This document shows positions 2,177-45,331 of a stretch of DNA of 45,331 nt, in pieces. Position numbers and translations under genes: made by a program. The notes beneath the pieces were generated by a model. That model was given only the letters and a program-made list of their open reading frames with translations, was not told the DNA's origin and did not search any database. Source of the stretch: a virus. Numbering within the stretch: position 1 is the first letter of the stretch; each line of letters starts with the position of its first letter. The stretch lies in IMG/VR virus record IMGVR_UViG_3300037560_000110, positions 1-45,331 of that record; one strand, 5' to 3'.

Positions 2177-2244
2177 GGTATTCTCCTTGGTTGATTCATT
2201 CATAATTCTTTTACATTCGTCGCCGTCTAAATGCAAGATCTTTT

Positions 2245-2487
2245 CTATCTACCATCCTTATAATTACATCCCTTATTACACTCATTGCAAGGACTACAAG
2301 CGTCAATGGTGATCTGAGGCAATGCATAACCTACCTCTGGCGCAGTTTCTACGATCTGATCAAAGATGATCTTATCCATGCACCGATTATCAGGCGTGAT
2401 AATTAACTCAATATCTAGCCTACGATCCTTTTTCATGGCTTCGGTAATCGTTGGAATATTGATTTCAACATTTGGCTTTATTCTCAT
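2245..2487 (-). CDS. Hypothetical protein with C-terminal Cys cluster
   Basis: This 80-residue protein is unrecognised. The body is predicted alpha/beta with no known motif. The end holds a tight cysteine cluster (CSPCNECNKGC), which could bind zinc or an iron-sulfur centre. The start at 2487 overlaps the stop of the upstream gene as ATGA, indicating translational coupling, and is preferred to an in-frame start at 2544. It is the first of four consecutive Cys-rich small proteins. Confidence 0.65.
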   Translation of the reverse strand: MRIKPNVEINIPTITEAMKKDRRLDIELIITPDNRCMDKIIFDQIVETAPEVGYALPQITIDACSPCNECNKGCNYKDGR

Positions 2488-2675
2488 GGTCCACAATCCT
2501 CTGATTTCGGATGGCATTTTGGATAAGTAAAAGGACCATCGCATCCCTCGACCTTGAACATAGGTATAGGCTTTATTGATCTATGACATTCCCAAGTTGG
2601 ACTAGGCTTAGATGAAAAACCTCTAGAGAAATGACACCATTCACATTTACCTATCCAATAAACTTTATCAGTCAT
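2484..2675 (-). CDS. Cys-rich mini-protein
   Basis: This 63-residue protein is unrecognised. It opens with a CEWC pair near residue 11 and carries five further Cys spaced through the second half, ending SEDCGP. The arrangement C-x2-C, then C about 20 residues later, suggests a small metal-bound domain. The start at 2675 forms an ATGA overlap with the gene before it. No catalytic residues are evident. Confidence 0.65.
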   Translation of the reverse strand: MTDKVYWIGKCEWCHFSRGFSSKPSPTWECHRSIKPIPMFKVEGCDGPFTYPKCHPKSEDCGP

Positions 2676-2887
2676 GACCCACAATCCTTACACCATACGG
2701 TAAAAATACCCAACCCATACGGTACAACGTGAAGCATCCAAGCGTCTTTAAACTCAACCTTATCCTTGCAGGCAACACAATAATCATCCCCATTTTCAAC
2801 CATGCAATCAAAAACTACGCTCATCGTATTCAGCTTGTCAGGTTGATCTTTAAACCACTCAACAATGTGTACAGGGTAGCTACTCAT
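2672..2887 (-). CDS. Zinc-ribbon-like small protein
   Basis: This 71-residue protein is unrecognised. It has two CxxC pairs (CVAC near residues 37-40 and CKDC near the C-terminus) with about 26 residues between them. That is the knuckle spacing expected of a zinc ribbon. Start and stop both overlap neighbours by 4 bp, so it is embedded in the coupled early operon. No partner or function can be read from the sequence. Confidence 0.7.
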   Translation of the reverse strand: MSSYPVHIVEWFKDQPDKLNTMSVVFDCMVENGDDYCVACKDKVEFKDAWMLHVVPYGLGIFTVWCKDCGS

Positions 2888-3081
2888 GCATGCTCCTCCC
2901 CTTTCTCATCTTGCCCTCTCTTCTCATCCTTAGTTAGATTTCTCCATAAAACAAAATAGCAACACCTAACATCCTCTTTATAAAGAACCTTCCAATTGCG
3001 AGTACAGATAGGCATAATCTTCCCGTCCCTATCTACTGGCTCGGCAAACCATAAGCATTTTTTACAAGCTAAATCATCCAT
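2884..3081 (-). CDS. Cys-rich mini-protein
   Basis: This 65-residue protein starts with a CKKC pair at residues 6-9, then a Cys in PICTRNW and a CCYF pair. The pattern C-x2-C-x-F/W ... C ... C-x-F recurs in small proteins at 6449, 8146 and 43233 of this genome, suggesting one metal-binding mini-domain used several times. The C-terminal third is highly charged. It overlaps both neighbours. Confidence 0.65.
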   Translation of the reverse strand: MDDLACKKCLWFAEPVDRDGKIMPICTRNWKVLYKEDVRCCYFVLWRNLTKDEKRGQDEKGEEHA

Positions 3082-3245
3082 TATTCCTCCTTTATGAATT
3101 TTAATAGCCGGTCATTTTCAGAGAGGCAAAGCTTAATTACAGCGTCGTAATATGCGCTATTCTTTAAACCTGGATCAAGTTGCTCCTTGAGCATAAGCTC
3201 TCTTTGAATCTCTAAATATTTGATTATCTCCTCAACCGTTATCAT
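3081..3245 (-). CDS. Hypothetical small helical protein
   Basis: This 54-residue protein is unrecognised. It is predicted to be almost wholly helical (TVEEIIKYLEIQRELMLKEQ, then a second amphipathic helix). The start at 3245 was chosen because it makes an ATGA overlap with the upstream stop; an upstream in-frame start at 3272 would overlap further. It could be an adaptor or inhibitor peptide, but nothing shows this. Confidence 0.6.
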   Translation of the reverse strand: MITVEEIIKYLEIQRELMLKEQLDPGLKNSAYYDAVIKLCLSENDRLLKFIKEE

Positions 3246-3514
3246 TTGCACTCCTCCCAATAATCCAACCAAACGGGTATTCTCATTTTCATCTTACGAA
3301 AATGCTTGTTCTCGGAAATAGTTGAAAGAGGCATAGATTCTTCATAATTCGTTACAAGCTCAATGGGATCATGAACAGCTACAGATACAATATCCCTATT
3401 GTACCCAACTGCACTAGGCAGATCTCTAACCGTTTCCACCTGGAATCCATCCCTTGTCAACGTATCCTCAAACTGACTAATTAACTCGCTAAAGCTAGGG
3501 ATGTAAATCTTCAT
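3242..3514 (-). CDS. Hypothetical protein
   Basis: This 90-residue protein is unrecognised. Its N-terminal half (SELISQFEDTLTRDGFQVET) looks like a helix followed by strands. A central segment has hydrophobic strands, and the end is aromatic (IPVWLDYWEECK). The start coincides with the upstream stop (TAATG). It is part of the early leftward operon. Confidence 0.6.
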   Translation of the reverse strand: MKIYIPSFSELISQFEDTLTRDGFQVETVRDLPSAVGYNRDIVSVAVHDPIELVTNYEESMPLSTISENKHFRKMKMRIPVWLDYWEECK

Positions 3515-3852
3515 TATACCTTCTCAACAGTTACTTTGAATTGATGTTGGCAGTCGCTATGTGCCTTATCATTCCAATTATTGACACCAAACAAGTATCT
3601 CTGTAGAGGGTTAGACTCTATATGAGGTTCTGGAGAATTAGAAGATAGCCAAATATTGGTACTGTAAGACTCAAATTCAACATCAGATAGATCAAGAACA
3701 TCCTGAGCCCTTGCAGCCTTGTTACTTCCTCTACAATTCAAGTATTGTAAAGGACACTCGGAACAAGTAATACCTGCGCAGCTATCCTTCTCAACTATCT
3801 GCCTTAGCACCCTTTTGTCTTCTTTGGTGATTCTATACTTTAAAATTTCCAT
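3514..3852 (-). CDS. Hypothetical protein with Cys motif
   Basis: This 112-residue protein is unrecognised. An N-terminal helical segment leads to a four-Cys motif (CAGITCSECPLQYLNC, about residues 24-39) that may bind a metal. The rest is acidic and Ser-rich. The start at 3852 shares a base with the stop of the first tandem paralogue (TAATG), and is preferred to an in-frame upstream start at 3885. Similar short phage proteins exist as uncharacterised families. Confidence 0.6.
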   Translation of the reverse strand: MEILKYRITKEDKRVLRQIVEKDSCAGITCSECPLQYLNCRGSNKAARAQDVLDLSDVEFESYSTNIWLSSNSPEPHIESNPLQRYLFGVNNWNDKAHSDCQHQFKVTVEKV

Positions 3853-4277
3853 TATACATTCACCTCTTTGATCTCTGTCCAACATGAGTCATAGGTGCAA
3901 GTGTTTCTCCTATCCTCATATTTGCCGCCAAAAGAACTCATCATCTCCGTGATAATGCAATTGTTCCAATTCTCGGCATTGATAGATCCATTATGACTTA
4001 TCCTGTAATTTTCTGCCTCGCTCAAAACCTGATGTAAAGGCTTAATGTATTTAACCTCCTTTTTCCTGTAGTTGAATCTATGCCTACTGTCGGGATGCTT
4101 AACACCATTAACAGAGAAAGATTCTGATAGGCCACTTTTCCAAACAACCACGCACCTATTATAGTGGGTAGCTTCTGGACAATGGGTAATACTCAGTATC
4201 TTACCTGTGTAATTAATATGCTTAATATCTTCAATATTCGCTAGGTGTAAATCAAATACCTGCTTTAGATCGTTCAT
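3852..4277 (-). CDS. Tandem paralogue family member 1
   Basis: This 141-residue protein is one of four adjacent, clearly related proteins. Shared landmarks in order: an N-terminal segment ending D-I-x-H; a strand with HC or YCP-x-A; a hydrophobic V-V-x-W/Y segment; a short IDGR-like stretch (here VNGVK); a K-x-x-x-K-Y-I/L-KPLH block; EA-x-x-Y-x-I-x-x-NG-x-I; a W-x-x-x-I segment; FGGK; and a terminal W-x-E-x-KE. This copy is the most divergent (lost IDGR, extra Cys near the end). I recognise no known family. No transmembrane or nuclease motif is visible. Placement in the early operon suggests a host-facing role. Confidence 0.75.
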   Translation of the reverse strand: MNDLKQVFDLHLANIEDIKHINYTGKILSITHCPEATHYNRCVVVWKSGLSESFSVNGVKHPDSRHRFNYRKKEVKYIKPLHQVLSEAENYRISHNGSINAENWNNCIITEMMSSFGGKYEDRRNTCTYDSCWTEIKEVNV

Positions 4278-4708
4278 TAGTTAATCTCCTTGGTTTCAAT
4301 CCATGAATGGTCATAACAAAAGCTACCTTGTTGTTTTCCGTGAGAAAAAACAGCATCTTTTCCATTAAACTCCTTGCCGAAATATTGAAACATACCAGAG
4401 GTTATAGAATTACGCCAGGAGTCGCTTCTAATAGTTCCGCTAGAATTTATTGTATAGTTATTCGCTTTACTCAGAATTACATCTAGAGGCTTTAGAAATT
4501 TAGCCTCCTTAGGTTTAAGAACGATCATAGGATCTCTGGTCACCATGTATCGCCCGTCGATAGTTGTAGTTGTAAATTTACTATCCTCGAAAACAATAAC
4601 AATCTTTCTATCGAGATCTACTGCTTTAGGACAATGGACAATGGCTATGATCTCTTGGTCATGCTCTATACTCTTAACATCTTCTGGCCTTAATTCGGTT
4701 AAATTCAT
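4277..4708 (-). CDS. Tandem paralogue family member 2
   Basis: This 143-residue copy of the four-member family carries the landmarks VHCPKA, TIDGRY, FLKPLDVIL, NYTINSSGTI, FGKEF and a terminal SWIETKE. It is one of the longer copies, with a small insertion before the final block (GKQQGSF region). It overlaps its neighbours by 1 and 4 bp, so the four copies are translated as a coupled set. Function unknown. Confidence 0.75.
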   Translation of the reverse strand: MNLTELRPEDVKSIEHDQEIIAIVHCPKAVDLDRKIVIVFEDSKFTTTTIDGRYMVTRDPMIVLKPKEAKFLKPLDVILSKANNYTINSSGTIRSDSWRNSITSGMFQYFGKEFNGKDAVFSHGKQQGSFCYDHSWIETKEIN

Positions 4709-5118
4709 GCCTCTTCCTCCTTGATTTCAATCCATGACTTCTCATAAAAATACGCACCTGCTTTATCAGCTCTTCCACCAAAAAACTTCATCATGCCTGT
4801 AATGATGGCAATATCCCAGACGCTACTGCATATACTTCCGTTTGAATTTATCGCATATTCTCCGGCTTCTTTCATCACTACATGTAGAGGTTTTAGATAT
4901 TTAACCTGCTTAGGCTTATAGAAAAACTTTCTCTTTGTTCCGAGGCTACATCTGCCGTCGATAGTGTACGCGTTAGAAACACCATCGGAATAAACGACTA
5001 CTATCTTCATATCCATTGGAGCATCTCGACAATAAACAATAGATACTATTTCATACGCGTTATATTCATGCTTAATATCGTCCGGTCTTACATTTCTTAA
5101 ATCTTTTACTTCTCTCAT
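4705..5118 (-). CDS. Tandem paralogue family member 3
   Basis: This 137-residue copy shows VKDLRNVRPDDIKH, IVYCRDA, YTIDGRC, VKYLKPLHVV, EYAINSNGSI, FFGG and SWIEIKEEE. It is close to copy 4 throughout. The start at 5118 was chosen over one at 5145 because it forms an ATGA overlap with copy 4, has a purine-rich ribosome site (GGAGAGGAT), and yields the same N-terminus as copy 4 (VKDLR). The conserved core is probably an alpha/beta domain with a mostly buried aromatic C-terminus. Confidence 0.75.
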   Translation of the reverse strand: MREVKDLRNVRPDDIKHEYNAYEIVSIVYCRDAPMDMKIVVVYSDGVSNAYTIDGRCSLGTKRKFFYKPKQVKYLKPLHVVMKEAGEYAINSNGSICSSVWDIAIITGMMKFFGGRADKAGAYFYEKSWIEIKEEEA

Positions 5119-5534
5119 ATCCTCTCCTCCCTTTCTTCCGTCCATCTATTATCATAAATAAAGCCCGTGCTCATAGCATCAAACTTTTTACCGAAAAAAT
5201 GAAACATTCCATAAACTATATTATTACCCCAATCTTTGCTCTTTATAGTTCCGTTATACTCTATGTGATACTCACTAGCCTCGTTCAAAATCACATGAAG
5301 AGGCTTCAAATATCGAACCATCTTGGTTTTGTACAAAAATAGTTGCTCCGTATCAGAGTACAACCGGCCATCAATCGTGCAAGTCATATTATTTGCGTCA
5401 GAGTATACAATAGCAATCTTGCTACACTCTTGAGCATCTGGACAATAAACAATACCAGCTACCTTTCTGCCGTTACTAGAGTGCTCAATATCCTCCGCCT
5501 TTACTTCTCTTAAATCCTTTACGTAATCTGTCAT
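5115..5534 (-). CDS. Tandem paralogue family member 4
   Basis: This 139-residue copy is the first of the four to be transcribed. It carries VKDLREVKAEDIEH, IVYCPDA, CTIDGRL, VRYLKPLHVIL, EYHIEYNGTI, FFGKKFD and a degenerate terminal WTEEREER. Copies 3 and 4 look like the most recent duplication. No family is recognised. Alternatives include small adaptor, inhibitor or nucleotide-mimic proteins, none supported by direct evidence. Confidence 0.75.
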   Translation of the reverse strand: MTDYVKDLREVKAEDIEHSSNGRKVAGIVYCPDAQECSKIAIVYSDANNMTCTIDGRLYSDTEQLFLYKTKMVRYLKPLHVILNEASEYHIEYNGTIKSKDWGNNIVYGMFHFFGKKFDAMSTGFIYDNRWTEEREERI

Positions 5535-5719
5535 GCTTTGTCTCCATATCGTTTAGTTATATTTCCATTATCATCGCAATCGGAAGCATATTTATAACTC
5601 TCAAAAGAATCTTCAAAACCCTCCCAATTATCAACGCCATTATCTTCTAAAAACTGTAGCTCCTCATATGCCTTGTAGATATCAAGATACCTCTCTTTGC
5701 TTATCGTTACGTTACTCAT
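5531..5719 (-). CDS. Hypothetical acidic small protein
   Basis: This 62-residue protein is unrecognised. It is acidic and rich in Asp, Glu, Tyr and Phe, with a helical first half (KERYLDIYKAYEELQFLED). The start at 5719 has AAAGGATG upstream and overlaps the previous stop by a few bases; a start at 5728 is also possible. Its acidity would suit a DNA-mimic or charged adaptor, but this is conjecture. Confidence 0.6.
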   Translation of the reverse strand: MSNVTISKERYLDIYKAYEELQFLEDNGVDNWEGFEDSFESYKYASDCDDNGNITKRYGDKA

Positions 5720-5984
5720 TGCCATCATCCTTTAATAAAGAATCCTTACGATAATCATCCATCATAATCCTAACATCATTTGACGCGCTGAGTATTATCA
5801 TGTTGGAATATGATCTATCTTTCCATCCTTCCAAGCTAAACATAACGTCTTTAGAAAAGCCATGATCGTTATAAGTCGTTTCCACCCTTACCTGAAAGTG
5901 CTTACTTTGCTCATCATAAGAAATTAGTAATCTTTGCTTTCTAATCAAAAGCTCCGCCATTACTCTTGGCCCTATCTCAAACAT
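5712..5984 (-). CDS. Hypothetical protein
   Basis: This 90-residue protein is unrecognised. It is predicted mainly beta in the middle (RLLISYDEQSKHFQVRVET) with a helix near the end. The start is well supported by AGGAGG a few bases upstream. It follows a tiny gene at 5994-6149 after a 9-base gap, so it is part of the early operon. Confidence 0.65.
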   Translation of the reverse strand: MFEIGPRVMAELLIRKQRLLISYDEQSKHFQVRVETTYNDHGFSKDVMFSLEGWKDRSYSNMIILSASNDVRIMMDDYRKDSLLKDDGNE

Positions 5985-5993
5985 CTAAACCTC

Positions 5994-6149
5994 CTACCAT
6001 TGGCTAAAACCGATTAAACAAGTTAAAGGACCAGCTAATACACAAATCTGAGCTGAACCATCACTACCATCTAAGAAAACGCCAGCACCCCATACACTCC
6101 ATGTAATCTCAAATTTTATCCTAAACCTGTCTATGTGAAATCTCTGCAT
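5994..6149 (-). CDS. Tiny hydrophobic-tailed protein
   Basis: This 51-residue protein has a basic N-terminus (MQRFHIDRFRIKFEI) and a hydrophobic C-terminal segment (AQICVLAGPLTCLIGF). It is marked as real by an almost perfect ribosome site (AAGGAGGTG) before the ATG. The start lies inside the end of the upstream DUF1737-like gene. It could be a membrane-associated peptide; nothing more can be said. Confidence 0.6.
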   Translation of the reverse strand: MQRFHIDRFRIKFEITWSVWGAGVFLDGSDGSAQICVLAGPLTCLIGFSQW

Positions 6150-6334
6150 TTAACCACCTCCTTATATTTCACCATTGCTTGAAAAAGATAATTCTCTGAT
6201 TCATCGCCAATTCCGTATGGATTTTTGTATAGCTTCCAACCGGCCTTAAGAAAGTTATTTACCTCATTATCTAGAGATTTTTCACTATTCCCAGTAAGCG
6301 TTTTATATTCACACACTTCAAATGCTTTAATCAT
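6131..6334 (-). CDS. DUF1737-like protein
   Basis: This 67-residue protein matches the pattern of the small DUF1737 family as I know it: EYKTLTG, then an eight-residue gap, VNNFLKAGWKLY, and a late aromatic-plus-QAMVK segment. The family is common in phages and prophages, and its role is unknown. The start at 6334 was chosen because GGAGGG precedes it; an in-frame start at 6424 would run through another gene with its own ribosome site. Confidence 0.75.
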   Translation of the reverse strand: MIKAFEVCEYKTLTGNSEKSLDNEVNNFLKAGWKLYKNPYGIGDESENYLFQAMVKYKEVVKCRDFT

Positions 6335-6335
6335 G

Positions 6336-6452
6336 TCACCCTCCAAATACAAATTTAGCTGTCGCCAAAGGAACAATAATACTAGACAGCAGCGACCATA
6401 CGACCATAGTGACTGCCGATACAACTACTACAACAAAAATTACTTCTTTCAT
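6336..6452 (-). CDS. Single-span membrane mini-protein
   Basis: This 38-residue protein is almost entirely one hydrophobic span (residues 4-32, opening VIFVVVVVSAV). It has GGAGGTG 7 bases before its ATG and an ATGA overlap with the upstream stop, so it is probably translated. It lies in the early operon, far from the endolysin region. A membrane-targeting function such as inhibition of a host membrane process is possible but unproven. Confidence 0.65.
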   Translation of the reverse strand: MKEVIFVVVVVSAVTMVVWSLLSSIIVPLATAKFVFGG

Positions 6453-6997
6453 TCTTTTGGCACCTCCGGAAGACGACACCAATCTGGTACTCCTACTGCA
6501 TTAGGGTTAATACTTCTATGCTCGTGGGTAGCTTCAAGGGGCTTCCTACAGAAGTAAACTGGACCTTGTCCCATATTGCTTTCTTTTGAGTACATACAAT
6601 CCTCACAGCTAACAACCTCTATATAAACTTTCTTCTTTTTCAGCTTTCTATTTCTAAACAAACCTATTTCCCCTTTTAATTTTACATATTCAGGCGGCCT
6701 CAATACATCCCATAAACCATTTAAAATCTTGTCACACTTCTGTTCGTCACCCCATCTGGTATCGATAGATACATCTGTATGACCATATGAATTATAGCTT
6801 GCTAAGGTGTAAACAATATAAAAACCTCTACATGATAGTTCTACCTTAACCCCGTAGTCTCTCGATGCTATCTCTAGAATTTGATCGCAGCTCATTTCTT
6901 CCCTTATTTTTATTGGCGTTAATGATTTATCACTAATAAACCTACTCACTACTCTTTCGCCTATTCTCATTTCATAATGTTTAAGGTCGAAGCTCAT
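6449..6997 (-). CDS. Hypothetical protein with C-terminal four-Cys domain
   Basis: This 182-residue protein is one of the largest in the early operon. Residues 1-115 are unrecognised alpha/beta. After a Lys-rich linker (NRKLKKKKVY) comes a small Cys domain: CEDC, then FCRKPLE, then a WCRLPE ending. The C-terminal domain resembles the mini-proteins at 2884 and 43233 and looks like a shared metal-binding module fused to a larger partner. The start overlaps the upstream stop. Confidence 0.65.
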   Translation of the reverse strand: MSFDLKHYEMRIGERVVSRFISDKSLTPIKIREEMSCDQILEIASRDYGVKVELSCRGFYIVYTLASYNSYGHTDVSIDTRWGDEQKCDKILNGLWDVLRPPEYVKLKGEIGLFRNRKLKKKKVYIEVVSCEDCMYSKESNMGQGPVYFCRKPLEATHEHRSINPNAVGVPDWCRLPEVPKE

Positions 6998-7862: not shown

Positions 7863-8146
7863 ACTAACTCCTGGAATTGTACCCAATTTCCTATAGCAGA
7901 AGTCCTAGCTCCTACCCTGCCTCGCATAAGAAGGTTGATGTTTCCTATCTTCTTTATATCAAGCTTTTTAAAGGCCATGCCGTCTAGGTATTCTCTATTA
8001 TCTTGAATGCCGCTAAACGTAACAGCTCCGGTTTCCTTGTCTGTAGTAACTTCAAAAGCCAATCCGTGAGGATGTAAGAACTGCCTGTTAAGCTCATGAA
8101 GGTATCCAATCTCTCTAAACTCCTTGAGATCAATGTATTTTTGCAT
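7859..8146 (-). CDS. Conserved small phage protein (FREKGYLQELNR-type)
   Basis: This 95-residue protein has the pattern EFREIGYLHELNRQFLHPHG, followed by AFEV and a SGIQDNREYLDG segment. It matches a widespread uncharacterised phage family in which a leading GYLxELNRxFLHPxGLA motif is nearly invariant. Its function is unknown to me. It overlaps both neighbours (TAATG and ATGA). The family resemblance is from memory of the motif, not a search. Confidence 0.7.
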   Translation of the reverse strand: MQKYIDLKEFREIGYLHELNRQFLHPHGLAFEVTTDKETGAVTFSGIQDNREYLDGMAFKKLDIKKIGNINLLMRGRVGARTSAIGNWVQFQELV

Positions 8147-8328
8147 TATTCCTCCTTTCCCATCTCAAGAAACATTTTAGCTAATATCTGAGCTGCTAGG
8201 TGTTCATGACAATAAACAGACTCATTACCAAATGGGCAAATGGTGCAATTAAAAGCAGCATCAATACAGCCATTCTCTGCTAGATACTCAAGCTTTTTCT
8301 TTTCGTCCTTGCTATAGAAAATATCCAT
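8146..8328 (-). CDS. Cys-rich mini-protein
   Basis: This 60-residue protein has a helical N-terminus (DEKKKLEYLAENG), then CIDAAFNCTICPFG, then YCHEH, and a helical end. Cys and His spacing suggests a small zinc site. The start shares a base with the stop of the membrane mini-protein before it. The product is unrecognised. Confidence 0.65.
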   Translation of the reverse strand: MDIFYSKDEKKKLEYLAENGCIDAAFNCTICPFGNESVYCHEHLAAQILAKMFLEMGKEE

Positions 8329-9811: not shown

Positions 9812-10030
9812 GTGTGTATTTTTGTAAAAAAGCTTATACACATTCCAACTATCTAATATAATATATATATATAATATATATATATGTGTATATATAGGTA
9901 GACCAAATAAATAAAATAGGGGTGGTGCCACCCCCCTTATCATTCTCGCTCATTCGTTGTTTTTGATTGTAATACCGGGGGGATGAATGTGTATGTTAGT
10001 GTGTATATTGCTTATACATCTTATACACTC
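9812..10030. other. Candidate replication origin region
   Basis: This non-coding stretch holds a 40-base alternating A/T tract (about 9856-9895) and several copies of a TTATACACA-like 9-mer in both orientations: 9834-9842 (exact TTATNCACA, the DnaA-box consensus), 9813-9821, 9885-9893, 9988-9996, 10000-10008, 10012-10020 and 10021-10029. A GC hairpin (GGGGTGG/CCACCCC, 9919-9934) lies between them. Iterons plus an AT-rich unwinding element beside the primase-helicase gene are what an origin looks like. Function is inferred. Confidence 0.55.
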
Positions 10031-12210
10031 TTAACCGGGGGACGTTTTTTTATAGAGTAACCAACTCTACCTGGCGTTATCTGAAAATAAGAATCTTCCT
10101 TAATAACTTGTTGGAACAGGCTTAATAACTGTGGCTTGTTCTGAACAAATTGTCTAGTAAAACTTGTAAAGCCAACGTTCTTATTAGGAATTTTCTCTTT
10201 AGCCCGCTTCAAAGCCTTCGATATGGCATCATTATTGTTCTCATATAGCTCCACGCACCTAAGGCAAAAATGAAGGCAAGTCCGGCCAGCCCAATCCAGA
10301 TCTCTCTTTGATAGCTCCAGGCGTCCATTTACGGGATGCAAATTAAGCAAGGCTATCCTGGCCGCAAAAATCTCTACTCGATCTTTGTAATACGAAAACA
10401 AATGCTCATTGGATGGTTGACGATATTTGTGGTTGTCAAAAGCCAGTTGAATATCAATGAGAAAATCTTCTAAGTGATCTGGAGTCACTACGTCAACATA
10501 GTCCCTATTGGTTTTATCGTTTTTCTTGCTCCCTTTTTTGAACCTGTCCAGGATAACCTTAAATCTATTCACCACCTGATCGCTCAGAGGGATAGCTTCA
10601 CCATATCTCCTCCTGGCTTTGTAAACCTCCCTGGTCATATGCGGAGCCTTGATATAGATAAGATCAAATCTTCTCACCCCACCACCACCAAAAAAACTGT
10701 TCCCACGGTATTCATCAAAATTTACAAAGGTGTCATTCATAATTAGATTAACGATCGGCTCATAGACCGGCGGCGTATCGCTACTTGTCCGTCTTGACTT
10801 ACCCATGAGATAGCTACCTTTTCCGAGTGTAGCTACCTCCAGAAAAGACTGGAGGGGAGAGTATTCAGTTTTACAAGTGAAAAAATTCTTGGCTTCGTCC
10901 GAAGATATATTAAGGGTCGGCTCTGCATTTAAATCATCTAGTAAAGCTCCGTCACTTACAGGCATGTTATTTATAAACCCCTTGTATGTATTTCCGAACT
11001 CATAAAATTGCCGTATAGCTTCATCAAGAACCCCTTTGTTATAGGACTTCCCAGAATTAGAGTCACCCAATTGAAGCACCCTCTGGCTTATATTTCTCCT
11101 GCCGTAGTAGGCAACTTCAGCAAAGAAATAAGCTGGAAAAGTTTGGCTCCCAAAAGTTATCGCCGCTTCTTTATTCAATCCTTTATTGTTTATCAAGTCC
11201 CTCACGATGTCGCCAGCAAGCCCATGAGGTATGTCTAGGGGATCTTTTTTCAGCTTTAAAATGTGGGCATAAATATTAGGAGCTTCCTCTGTCTTCTTTA
11301 GCGCGCTCAAGAATGTCATCCCACTGAGATCCGTTTCCTCATCTGGATAGTCAAAATGATTGATAGCTATTCTCCTAAGACTCTCAAAATCAAAACGCCC
11401 TTTGCCCTTTGTTCTCCTGGTGTTCATCTCTATGTATTGATCGTTAGTATGTTTGTTTGGTATCCCAGTCCTTTTGCTCCATTCCTCTTGATCGAAAAAT
11501 CTATCAACCAAAGCCGCCGATGTTTCATCATGAAAACTCTCTGCAATAAACGCCACTACCTTCCATGCATCACCTTCGCTATCCCAGAATGAAGGGTCTT
11601 TCTCCTTGATAAACTCAAGCCTCTTGACTACCTCCTCATAGTTTGCTAAAGGTTCTTTGACTACCTGATTTCTTTTGTTAGCCTTTGTCTTGGTGGATAG
11701 TATTTTGTTAGTGAAGTTATCAGGCAAGTCGCCAATCTCCGGTACTACCCCATCATTAGAAACAAAATAACCCTCTGAACCAGCCATAAAAACAACACAA
11801 CCTGGACCACTCAGGAGCTCTATACCGCTGTCAGTGTATCGATACTTATCAACAGCGAATGGTTTGGATAGCTTTATATAGTAGTGCTCTCCTCCGTTTA
11901 CCGTTCCTTCACAATACCATTCTTTTATATCTAGTTTAAATTCTTTGATCCACTTGCCGAAAAGCTCGCTCCCTTTCTTGCCCTTTTTGTTGTCGATATC
12001 TATCACCAGGTAATTATCTAATATCATTGCGAGGCTATTCTGACGCACGCTATATGTGGTGTTCAGCTCTTCGAGTGAAGATATATATGGTGTATGGTCT
12101 TTACCCCATTTCTTTGGGAAAATTACCTCTTTTTCTTCTTTACCTGGAATTATCTTAATGTTTACAGGGAAGTATCTCTGCTTACCGAATTTTTCAATTG
12201 TTTTTTTCAT
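10021..12210 (-). CDS. Primase-polymerase / helicase fusion
   Basis: This 729-residue replication protein probably primes and unwinds phage DNA. The N-terminal third resembles a primase-polymerase (bifunctional DNA primase/polymerase family): DID at residues 71-73, then NGGEHYY around 105-111 with the conserved His109, then SGIELLSGPGCVV. The C-terminal half has a P-loop, GDSNSGKS at residues 382-389, in a helicase-like ATPase related to DUF3987/D5-type proteins. The gene points away from the recombination operon, from which it is separated by 90 bases, and ends at the candidate origin. No separate DNA polymerase is visible in the genome, so host polymerase is probably used. Confidence 0.85.
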   Translation of the reverse strand: MKKTIEKFGKQRYFPVNIKIIPGKEEKEVIFPKKWGKDHTPYISSLEELNTTYSVRQNSLAMILDNYLVIDIDNKKGKKGSELFGKWIKEFKLDIKEWYCEGTVNGGEHYYIKLSKPFAVDKYRYTDSGIELLSGPGCVVFMAGSEGYFVSNDGVVPEIGDLPDNFTNKILSTKTKANKRNQVVKEPLANYEEVVKRLEFIKEKDPSFWDSEGDAWKVVAFIAESFHDETSAALVDRFFDQEEWSKRTGIPNKHTNDQYIEMNTRRTKGKGRFDFESLRRIAINHFDYPDEETDLSGMTFLSALKKTEEAPNIYAHILKLKKDPLDIPHGLAGDIVRDLINNKGLNKEAAITFGSQTFPAYFFAEVAYYGRRNISQRVLQLGDSNSGKSYNKGVLDEAIRQFYEFGNTYKGFINNMPVSDGALLDDLNAEPTLNISSDEAKNFFTCKTEYSPLQSFLEVATLGKGSYLMGKSRRTSSDTPPVYEPIVNLIMNDTFVNFDEYRGNSFFGGGGVRRFDLIYIKAPHMTREVYKARRRYGEAIPLSDQVVNRFKVILDRFKKGSKKNDKTNRDYVDVVTPDHLEDFLIDIQLAFDNHKYRQPSNEHLFSYYKDRVEIFAARIALLNLHPVNGRLELSKRDLDWAGRTCLHFCLRCVELYENNNDAISKALKRAKEKIPNKNVGFTSFTRQFVQNKPQLLSLFQQVIKEDSYFQITPGRVGYSIKKRPPVKSV

Positions 12211-15073: not shown

Positions 15074-16102
15074 TTAGCGCTTCATTTGCATTTCAATTCT
15101 TTTACCCTCAAGTTTTCGGTTAACTTCAGCTATGATCTCGTCAATAGTCTTAACCTCAAAAGGACGTCGCCCTCCACCATATCCGGACATATCTTTCCAC
15201 GAAAAAGACTTGGGAAGGTCCAGAAATAAATTTCTCGAACTCTGATAACCCATTAGTTTCCAGTTTCCAAATAATAGTCCAGCTTCTTTTGCAACGGTTT
15301 GAGGGTTGAAATGACTGATACCTCTAGCTTCGTACCAATATTTTTCGCCCTGGATGTACTTGTATCCACGATAAACATAACTTGCACCAACAACAGTATC
15401 ATCTGTTCCTGAGATCTGAAATGAATCAGCTCTCATATTTGGCAAGTCTCTATAATAATTTGGCCATCCCATCCCAAAAGCTGGTTCAATTCCAACTACT
15501 GCAACCTTAGCGGAAGGGTATTTATTCCCGTATTTAAACCCGCAATGATTAGCACTTGATCCACCTTGGCTGTGGCCGGTAGAAAAGAACATGTCACCGT
15601 CGGCATGTTCTAAGCCTCTCAGATATTCCATCCCTTCCATGCACATCTTAGCGTCTCCGCTCTGAGTTGTTTCAGCACATGAAACTAAGTAGCCATGACT
15701 AGCAAGATGCATAGCAATACTTTGATAGAAGATACACCTGGCTCCAGTACCGTTACCGATAGAAGCTATAGGAGCCTTGCAATTGTCAGGAAGTCCAGTA
15801 GGCAAATAAAGCTTGTGGCCATTCCTATCCTTTTTCTTAACTGAGTATGGGCCAGGTTTTGTGAAATCAAGTCCATCCTGAACACAGAAATTTTTCTCTG
15901 GATCTGGGGTAGGTACTGGCGGCACTGGTTCAGGTTCGGGGTTTTCGCAATCTTGGCATGGTGGACATTTTGGACACTCTGGCTTTGGATAAGTTACGGG
16001 TATCTCAATTGGATTTGCGATTGTCTCTTCTATGATTTCCTCCACCACGCCACAACAAGATATTATACTTAGCATTAAAAATATTGATAGGTATTTAAAC
16101 AT
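15074..16102 (-). CDS. Lipoprotein alpha/beta-hydrolase (esterase/lipase-like)
   Basis: This 342-residue predicted outer-membrane or membrane-anchored lipoprotein begins with a signal peptide and lipobox IISC (Cys16 as lipidated residue), then a Pro/Glu/Cys-rich linker (residues 30-70). The rest is an alpha/beta-hydrolase fold: nucleophile elbow GHSQGG (Ser178), acid in GTDDTVV (Asp234 or Asp235), base in GISHF (His264) and a Gly-rich loop near 116-121. This layout is that of secreted polyester/cutinase-like or chlorophyllase-like esterases. AAAGGAG precedes the ATG. As the last gene of the late operon, near the endolysin, it may help lysis by attacking envelope lipids, or alter the infected cell's surface. 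The substrate is unknown. Confidence 0.8.
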   Translation of the reverse strand: MFKYLSIFLMLSIISCCGVVEEIIEETIANPIEIPVTYPKPECPKCPPCQDCENPEPEPVPPVPTPDPEKNFCVQDGLDFTKPGPYSVKKKDRNGHKLYLPTGLPDNCKAPIASIGNGTGARCIFYQSIAMHLASHGYLVSCAETTQSGDAKMCMEGMEYLRGLEHADGDMFFSTGHSQGGSSANHCGFKYGNKYPSAKVAVVGIEPAFGMGWPNYYRDLPNMRADSFQISGTDDTVVGASYVYRGYKYIQGEKYWYEARGISHFNPQTVAKEAGLLFGNWKLMGYQSSRNLFLDLPKSFSWKDMSGYGGGRRPFEVKTIDEIIAEVNRKLEGKRIEMQMKR

Positions 16103-45047: not shown

Positions 45048-45331
45048 GAGTATGCCCTTAATCTAGCTAGTCCTGTTAATTTACTGAATCTCTCTAATGC
45101 CTGTGACATACAATCCACGATGTCATCATTTGGAGAAGCTGGAAATGTTGTCAGCTCCTCCACAAATACCTTAGTCAATGGATGATCTGCCGGAAAGTGC
45201 ACATTCCCCGCCTCGAATACTGGCGACACTAAATGTAACCTCTCATCCTTCTGGCCTACTGGCTCCACTGGGATAATGCCTGATACCTCCTTTTTAAGAA
45301 GGGTAATGATCGCTGGACCATTAGCCTTATT
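45044..45331 (-). CDS. terL: Terminase large subunit, C-terminal part (continues at base 1)
   Basis: This is the C-terminal end of the gene at 1-1339; 45205-45331 repeats 1-127, so the unique part here is 45044-45204. It carries the last nuclease motif, PNDDIVDCMSQALERF, with the metal-binding Asp residues of the RNase H fold. The stop overlaps the portal ATG. A GTG at 45268 could look like a start, but the frame is continuous with the N-terminal domain. Confidence 0.95.
   Translation of the reverse strand, partial: NKANGPAIITLLKKEVSGIIPVEPVGQKDERLHLVSPVFEAGNVHFPADHPLTKVFVEELTTFPASPNDDIVDCMSQALERFSKLTGLARLRAYS
45205..45331. repeat. Exact terminal repeat (right copy)
   Basis: Identical to 1-127. 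It should be counted once when the genome is closed, giving about 45,204 bp. The join is inside terL and preserves its reading frame. Confidence 0.95.

Follow-up and report, generated by a model that had tools for sequence, protein, structure and literature searches.

What is encoded by four adjacent small genes of similar length in the genome of a phage, and why would the phage keep all four? This question is raised by a locus at positions 3852-5534 of a virus record. The window analyzed here is that complete record of 45,331 bases. It carries a 127-base direct repeat at 1-127 and 45205-45331, and the gene for TerL spans the junction of the record ends; the genome therefore appears closed and complete, while the length of the repeat suggests an assembly k-mer overlap. 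The window encodes a capsid protein of the Major_capside type, a Phage_portal_3 portal protein, and a tail sheath akin to that of contractile-tailed phages, together with an AAA_24 ATPase, a DUF669 gene, and a Gp157-like gene. No tRNA genes or Rfam families were found in the window, and so neither gave a hint of the host.

Four overlapping genes encode true paralogues

A sequence-only reading of this DNA had described four adjacent, overlapping genes of 137 to 143 residues, and these are present as described, all on the minus strand (Table 1). The overlaps are 1 to 4 bases long: the P1/P2 and P2/P3 junctions are ATGA, and the P3/P4 junction is TAATG, with one base shared. Ribosome-site-like sequences precede P2, P3, and P4. 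Because the P2 start at 5118 is preceded by the ribosome site GGAGGAGAGG and forms the ATGA overlap with P1, a longer form of P2 starting at 5145 is unlikely. A six-frame profile search of the window found exactly four copies, and P5 (3852-3514), the gene that follows P4, is unrelated to the array proteins (alignment z < 1.5).

Table 1. Coordinates of the array genes and of the two predicted parts of P2
Feature	Coordinates	Strand	Description	Evidence
P1	5115..5534	-	First paralogue of the array, 139 aa	ORF, alignment
P2	4705..5118	-	Second paralogue, 137 aa; copy used for structure prediction	ORF, ribosome site, alignment, model
P3	4277..4708	-	Third paralogue, 143 aa; insert of ~10 residues ahead of the final conserved Y...W	ORF, alignment
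P4	3852..4277	-	Fourth paralogue, 141 aa; the most divergent of the set	ORF, alignment
P2 N-terminal domain	4900..5118	-	Residues 1-73, predicted SH3-like barrel	pLDDT 86-94; PDB fold comparison
P2 C-terminal domain	4705..4899	-	Residues 74-137, signature A..Y.I...G.I....W...I...M...FG...Y...W.E..E	17/63 gap-free columns invariant; pLDDT ~55

All-against-all alignment gave local scores of 194 to 305, compared to shuffle means of 27 to 30 (standard deviation, 4 to 5), which places every pair 38 to 55 standard deviations above chance. Pairwise identity is 32 to 46%, and 26 columns are invariant. P1 to P4 are true paralogues, with similarity far above chance. The motif list of the sequence-only reading was broadly correct, except that three of its entries do not occur in all four copies. 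IDGR is found in P1 to P3 and is replaced by VNGV in P4; YCP-x-A takes the forms YCPDA, YCRDA, HCPKA, and HCPEA; and in place of FFG, P3 has YFG and P4 has SFG.

Among the four genes, first and second codon positions are 50 to 67% identical and third positions are 42 to 51% identical. Third positions are thus the less conserved ones, indicating that purifying selection acts on the proteins. With all four frames intact as well, the duplicates are or were maintained as proteins, and they are old. Synonymous sites are close to saturation, so the codon data neither show nor exclude diversifying selection; selection for variety among the copies is an inference of the sequence-only reading. The divergence among P1 to P4 exceeds that of TerL from the closest relative located (62% identity), a comparison between proteins whose rates are not comparable. 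Divergence may also be uneven along the proteins. The N-terminal half is less conserved than the C-terminal half in five of six pairs, and invariant gap-free columns number 9 of 69 in the N-terminal half versus 17 of 63 in the C-terminal half, a borderline difference (Fisher P = 0.051).

The N-terminal half is predicted to form an SH3-like barrel

An AlphaFold2 model of P2 was built from the four-row alignment. Residues 1 to 70 were modeled with pLDDT values of 86 to 94 (by blocks of ten), whereas the remainder stood at ~55. Strands were predicted at residues 15-17, 24-29, 39-43, 48-51, 65-67, and 70-75. When residues 1 to 70 were compared to known folds with VIA-align, the top matches were SH3-like or KOW-type barrels, namely, EF-P domain I, the eIF5A N-domain, ribosomal protein L2, and tudor, with Z scores of up to 4.8 and a root mean square deviation of 2.7 over 59 residues. 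These values are consistent with an SH3-like N-terminal domain in the model, although a Z score of 4.8 is under the tool's safe level and too low to claim kinship or function. The SH3-like barrel is a common binding fold, and small barrels often share no detectable sequence kinship. In this domain, no sequence homology to SH3, KOW, or tudor families was detected (no Pfam or NCBIfam family came near its cutoff, and no PDB sequence matched). EF-P and eIF5A themselves share ~3 to 16% identity with the predicted barrel, have no sequence match to it, and carry a different second domain, so the likeness is one of fold class only.

Given these matches, P1 to P4 might serve phage gene expression or replication by using a KOW/EF-P-like barrel to bind RNA, DNA, or ribosomes. 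The PDB comparison is indeed filled with domains of EF-P, eIF5A, and ribosomal protein L2, and the array sits within a run of non-structural genes. However, Z scores of at most 4.8 at low identity fall within the range given by unrelated small barrels, the protein-binding tudor and SAWADEE folds score nearly as high, and the isoelectric points of the four proteins range from 5.6 to 8.3 with no common basic bias. We therefore consider a nucleic acid- or ribosome-directed role distinctly unlikely.

A Foldseek search of viral models also returned several stand-alone uncharacterized phage proteins of 58 to 75 residues (probability, 0.8 to 0.97). Burkholderia phage BcepSauron was scanned for one such protein, ranked by Foldseek and 75 aa long, and no sequence relative was found. 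The best match in BFVD, A0A6J7W8A9 (127 aa, uncharacterized, from an uncultured Caudovirales phage; probability, 0.99), covers both halves over 139 columns, but with an E value of 0.0097, a TM score of 0.41 to 0.44, a root mean square deviation of 9.6, and 11% identity. The C-terminal domain of P1, predicted alone, reached a pLDDT of 59 and gave no usable fold match. The C-terminal half was considered as a possible Trp/Met/Gly/Trp module common to numerous small proteins of phages; regular expressions and half-profiles gave no convincing example in the genomes examined.

Searches for relatives of the array proteins

The family had been called unrecognized, and no library or sequence search used here names it. 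Pfam, PHROGs, NCBIfam, PADLOC, and PDB sequences contained no recognizable relative of P1 to P4. No kin were found by tblastn with all four proteins against 50,697 phage genomes or with P2 against plasmids. Pattern scans of IMG/VR (whole family or C-terminal half) and of 84,980 prokaryote species genomes, which detect fairly close kin only and may have lacked records close to the window, were likewise negative. Profile searches of 23 other phage records found no copy; relatives of the phage by portal and TerL, many of them fragments, had none either, and the window itself served as the positive control in one of the searches. The absence of known relatives holds only as far as these tools are sensitive. 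Two sets of weak matches were set aside: faecal-phage tblastn matches at an E value of 9 look like chance frames on reading, and PHROG, Pfam, and NCBIfam matches with E values of 0.02 to 0.3 were taken as chance, since they named a different family for each copy.

The profile and library searches returned no housekeeping or virion family, and no enzyme or virion protein was matched in Pfam, PHROGs, NCBIfam, or PDB sequences. Defense and anti-defense families were also absent from the matches in PADLOC, which holds mostly defense proteins and is a weak test, and from the significant matches in PHROGs, Pfam, and NCBIfam. Our literature search for other small phage paralogues in tandem, or for phage inhibitors of SH3-like type, found nothing specific.

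An arrangement similar to the array occurs in Salinivibrio phage CW02, in which gp6/gp7 and gp13/gp14 are likewise adjacent duplicated small proteins that look barrel-like by sequence pattern. Unlike P1 to P4, they are half as long, and they bear no significant sequence relation to the array proteins. Within CW02 (2206-6922), gp6/gp7 and gp13/gp14 are strong paralogues and gp4 and gp11 weak ones; the proteins have LLEEN-like tails, and their genes are interspersed with amidotransferase, amidoligase, and ATP-grasp genes.

Genomic context of the array upstream of TerS

From 9143 to 1946, the minus strand carries ~25 small ORFs with almost no family matches, a run that stops just before TerS (1838-1323) and has the array in its middle. 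One reading of this position, upstream of TerS and TerL, on the same strand as the terminase and structural genes and transcribed toward both, is that P1 to P4 are late proteins associated with the virion or with packaging. However, no structural family was matched, and the array is outside the portal-to-tail block (45047-18875). A sigma-70-like site between the cluster and TerS (1891-1862; 11/12 consensus match) hints that the small genes may be a separate transcription unit and that late transcription may start separately, although promoter-like sites in the region as a whole were not above shuffles. In addition, the family is absent from the examined DNA of relatives with similar terminases. 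Together, these observations make a virion or packaging role very improbable. Early expression, which the sequence-only reading had assumed, is not indicated by the shared strand or by the position upstream of TerS.

The records of the TerL relatives at 62% and 45% identity, both fragments, carry no array copy; upstream of their TerS genes are ParB-like and PP-loop-ATPase-like genes, as judged from sequence. Because these relatives carry other genes there, the region before TerS differs from phage to phage, as accessory genes or a swappable module would. The sequence-only reading had likened the array to host-range or anti-defense inhibitor families. Being small, coupled, duplicated, and orphan, and lying where genes are swapped, P1 to P4 could specifically be anti-defense or host takeover inhibitors diversified for several host targets, and this would fit the reported clustering of anti-defense genes in phages (PMC10286901). 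Against this, PADLOC, PHROG, and Pfam searches gave no known inhibitor, and no known accessory or anti-defense gene was recognized adjoining the array. An anti-defense role is plausible, but no result here favors it over another host- or phage-directed binding role, and we regard it as an unlikely special case of the binding role proposed below.

Within the same cluster, the proteins of P5 and of a minus-strand gene at 8146-8328 share the Cys motif K..L......C....C..CP (score, 39, versus a shuffle mean of 23; P ~ 0.01), and perhaps a small zinc-binding type is present there twice.

A proposed role for the array proteins

Phages often carry orphan, lineage-specific tandem families. The duplication described here is real, and the array is an orphan example of this known kind. 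The explanation we prefer, at about an even chance of being correct, is that a small phage accessory protein with two domains, probably a binder of macromolecules from host or phage, was expanded in tandem in this lineage. Real paralogy, coupled ORFs in a small-gene run, the predicted N-terminal barrel, and the lack of an enzyme or virion match count in its favor; the lack of a recognized anti-defense neighbor, the borderline difference between the two halves, the poor C-terminal model, and Z scores below 5 count against it.

According to this proposal, the overlapping genes probably sit on a single message and are translated jointly, within a small non-structural cluster before the terminase genes, and in each copy a predicted SH3-like barrel would precede the C-terminal half, the somewhat more conserved of the two. 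Binding is the most likely mode of action, and we infer both this role and its targets. The common C-terminal half may perform a shared job, such as oligomerization or contact with a common partner, whereas the more variable barrels may meet differing targets, for example, host or defense proteins. It is quite improbable that the array is, more narrowly, a new inhibitor family whose members display a variable SH3-like barrel on a constant C-terminal module, giving the phage four versions for four different host targets. If the copies do have different targets, they would offer a compact, naturally occurring series in which to study the retargeting of a small phage binding fold. If the targets do not differ, the array would be one more orphan phage family, useful mainly as a defined family that can be searched for by profile.

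Other features of the genome

Three further features were observed outside the small-gene cluster. A 729-aa primase/helicase-like protein (10021-12210, minus strand) has no Pfam match, and tblastn against the phage collection gave none either. Near endolysin-like and tail genes, the minus strand at 15074-16102 encodes a predicted lipoprotein with the look of an alpha/beta hydrolase (GHSQGG and a weak Chlorophyllase match), which would be unusual cargo for a phage. Between converging genes at 9918-9935, the palindromic sequence GGGGGTGGCACCACCCCT forms a terminator-like hairpin that can be read on both strands.
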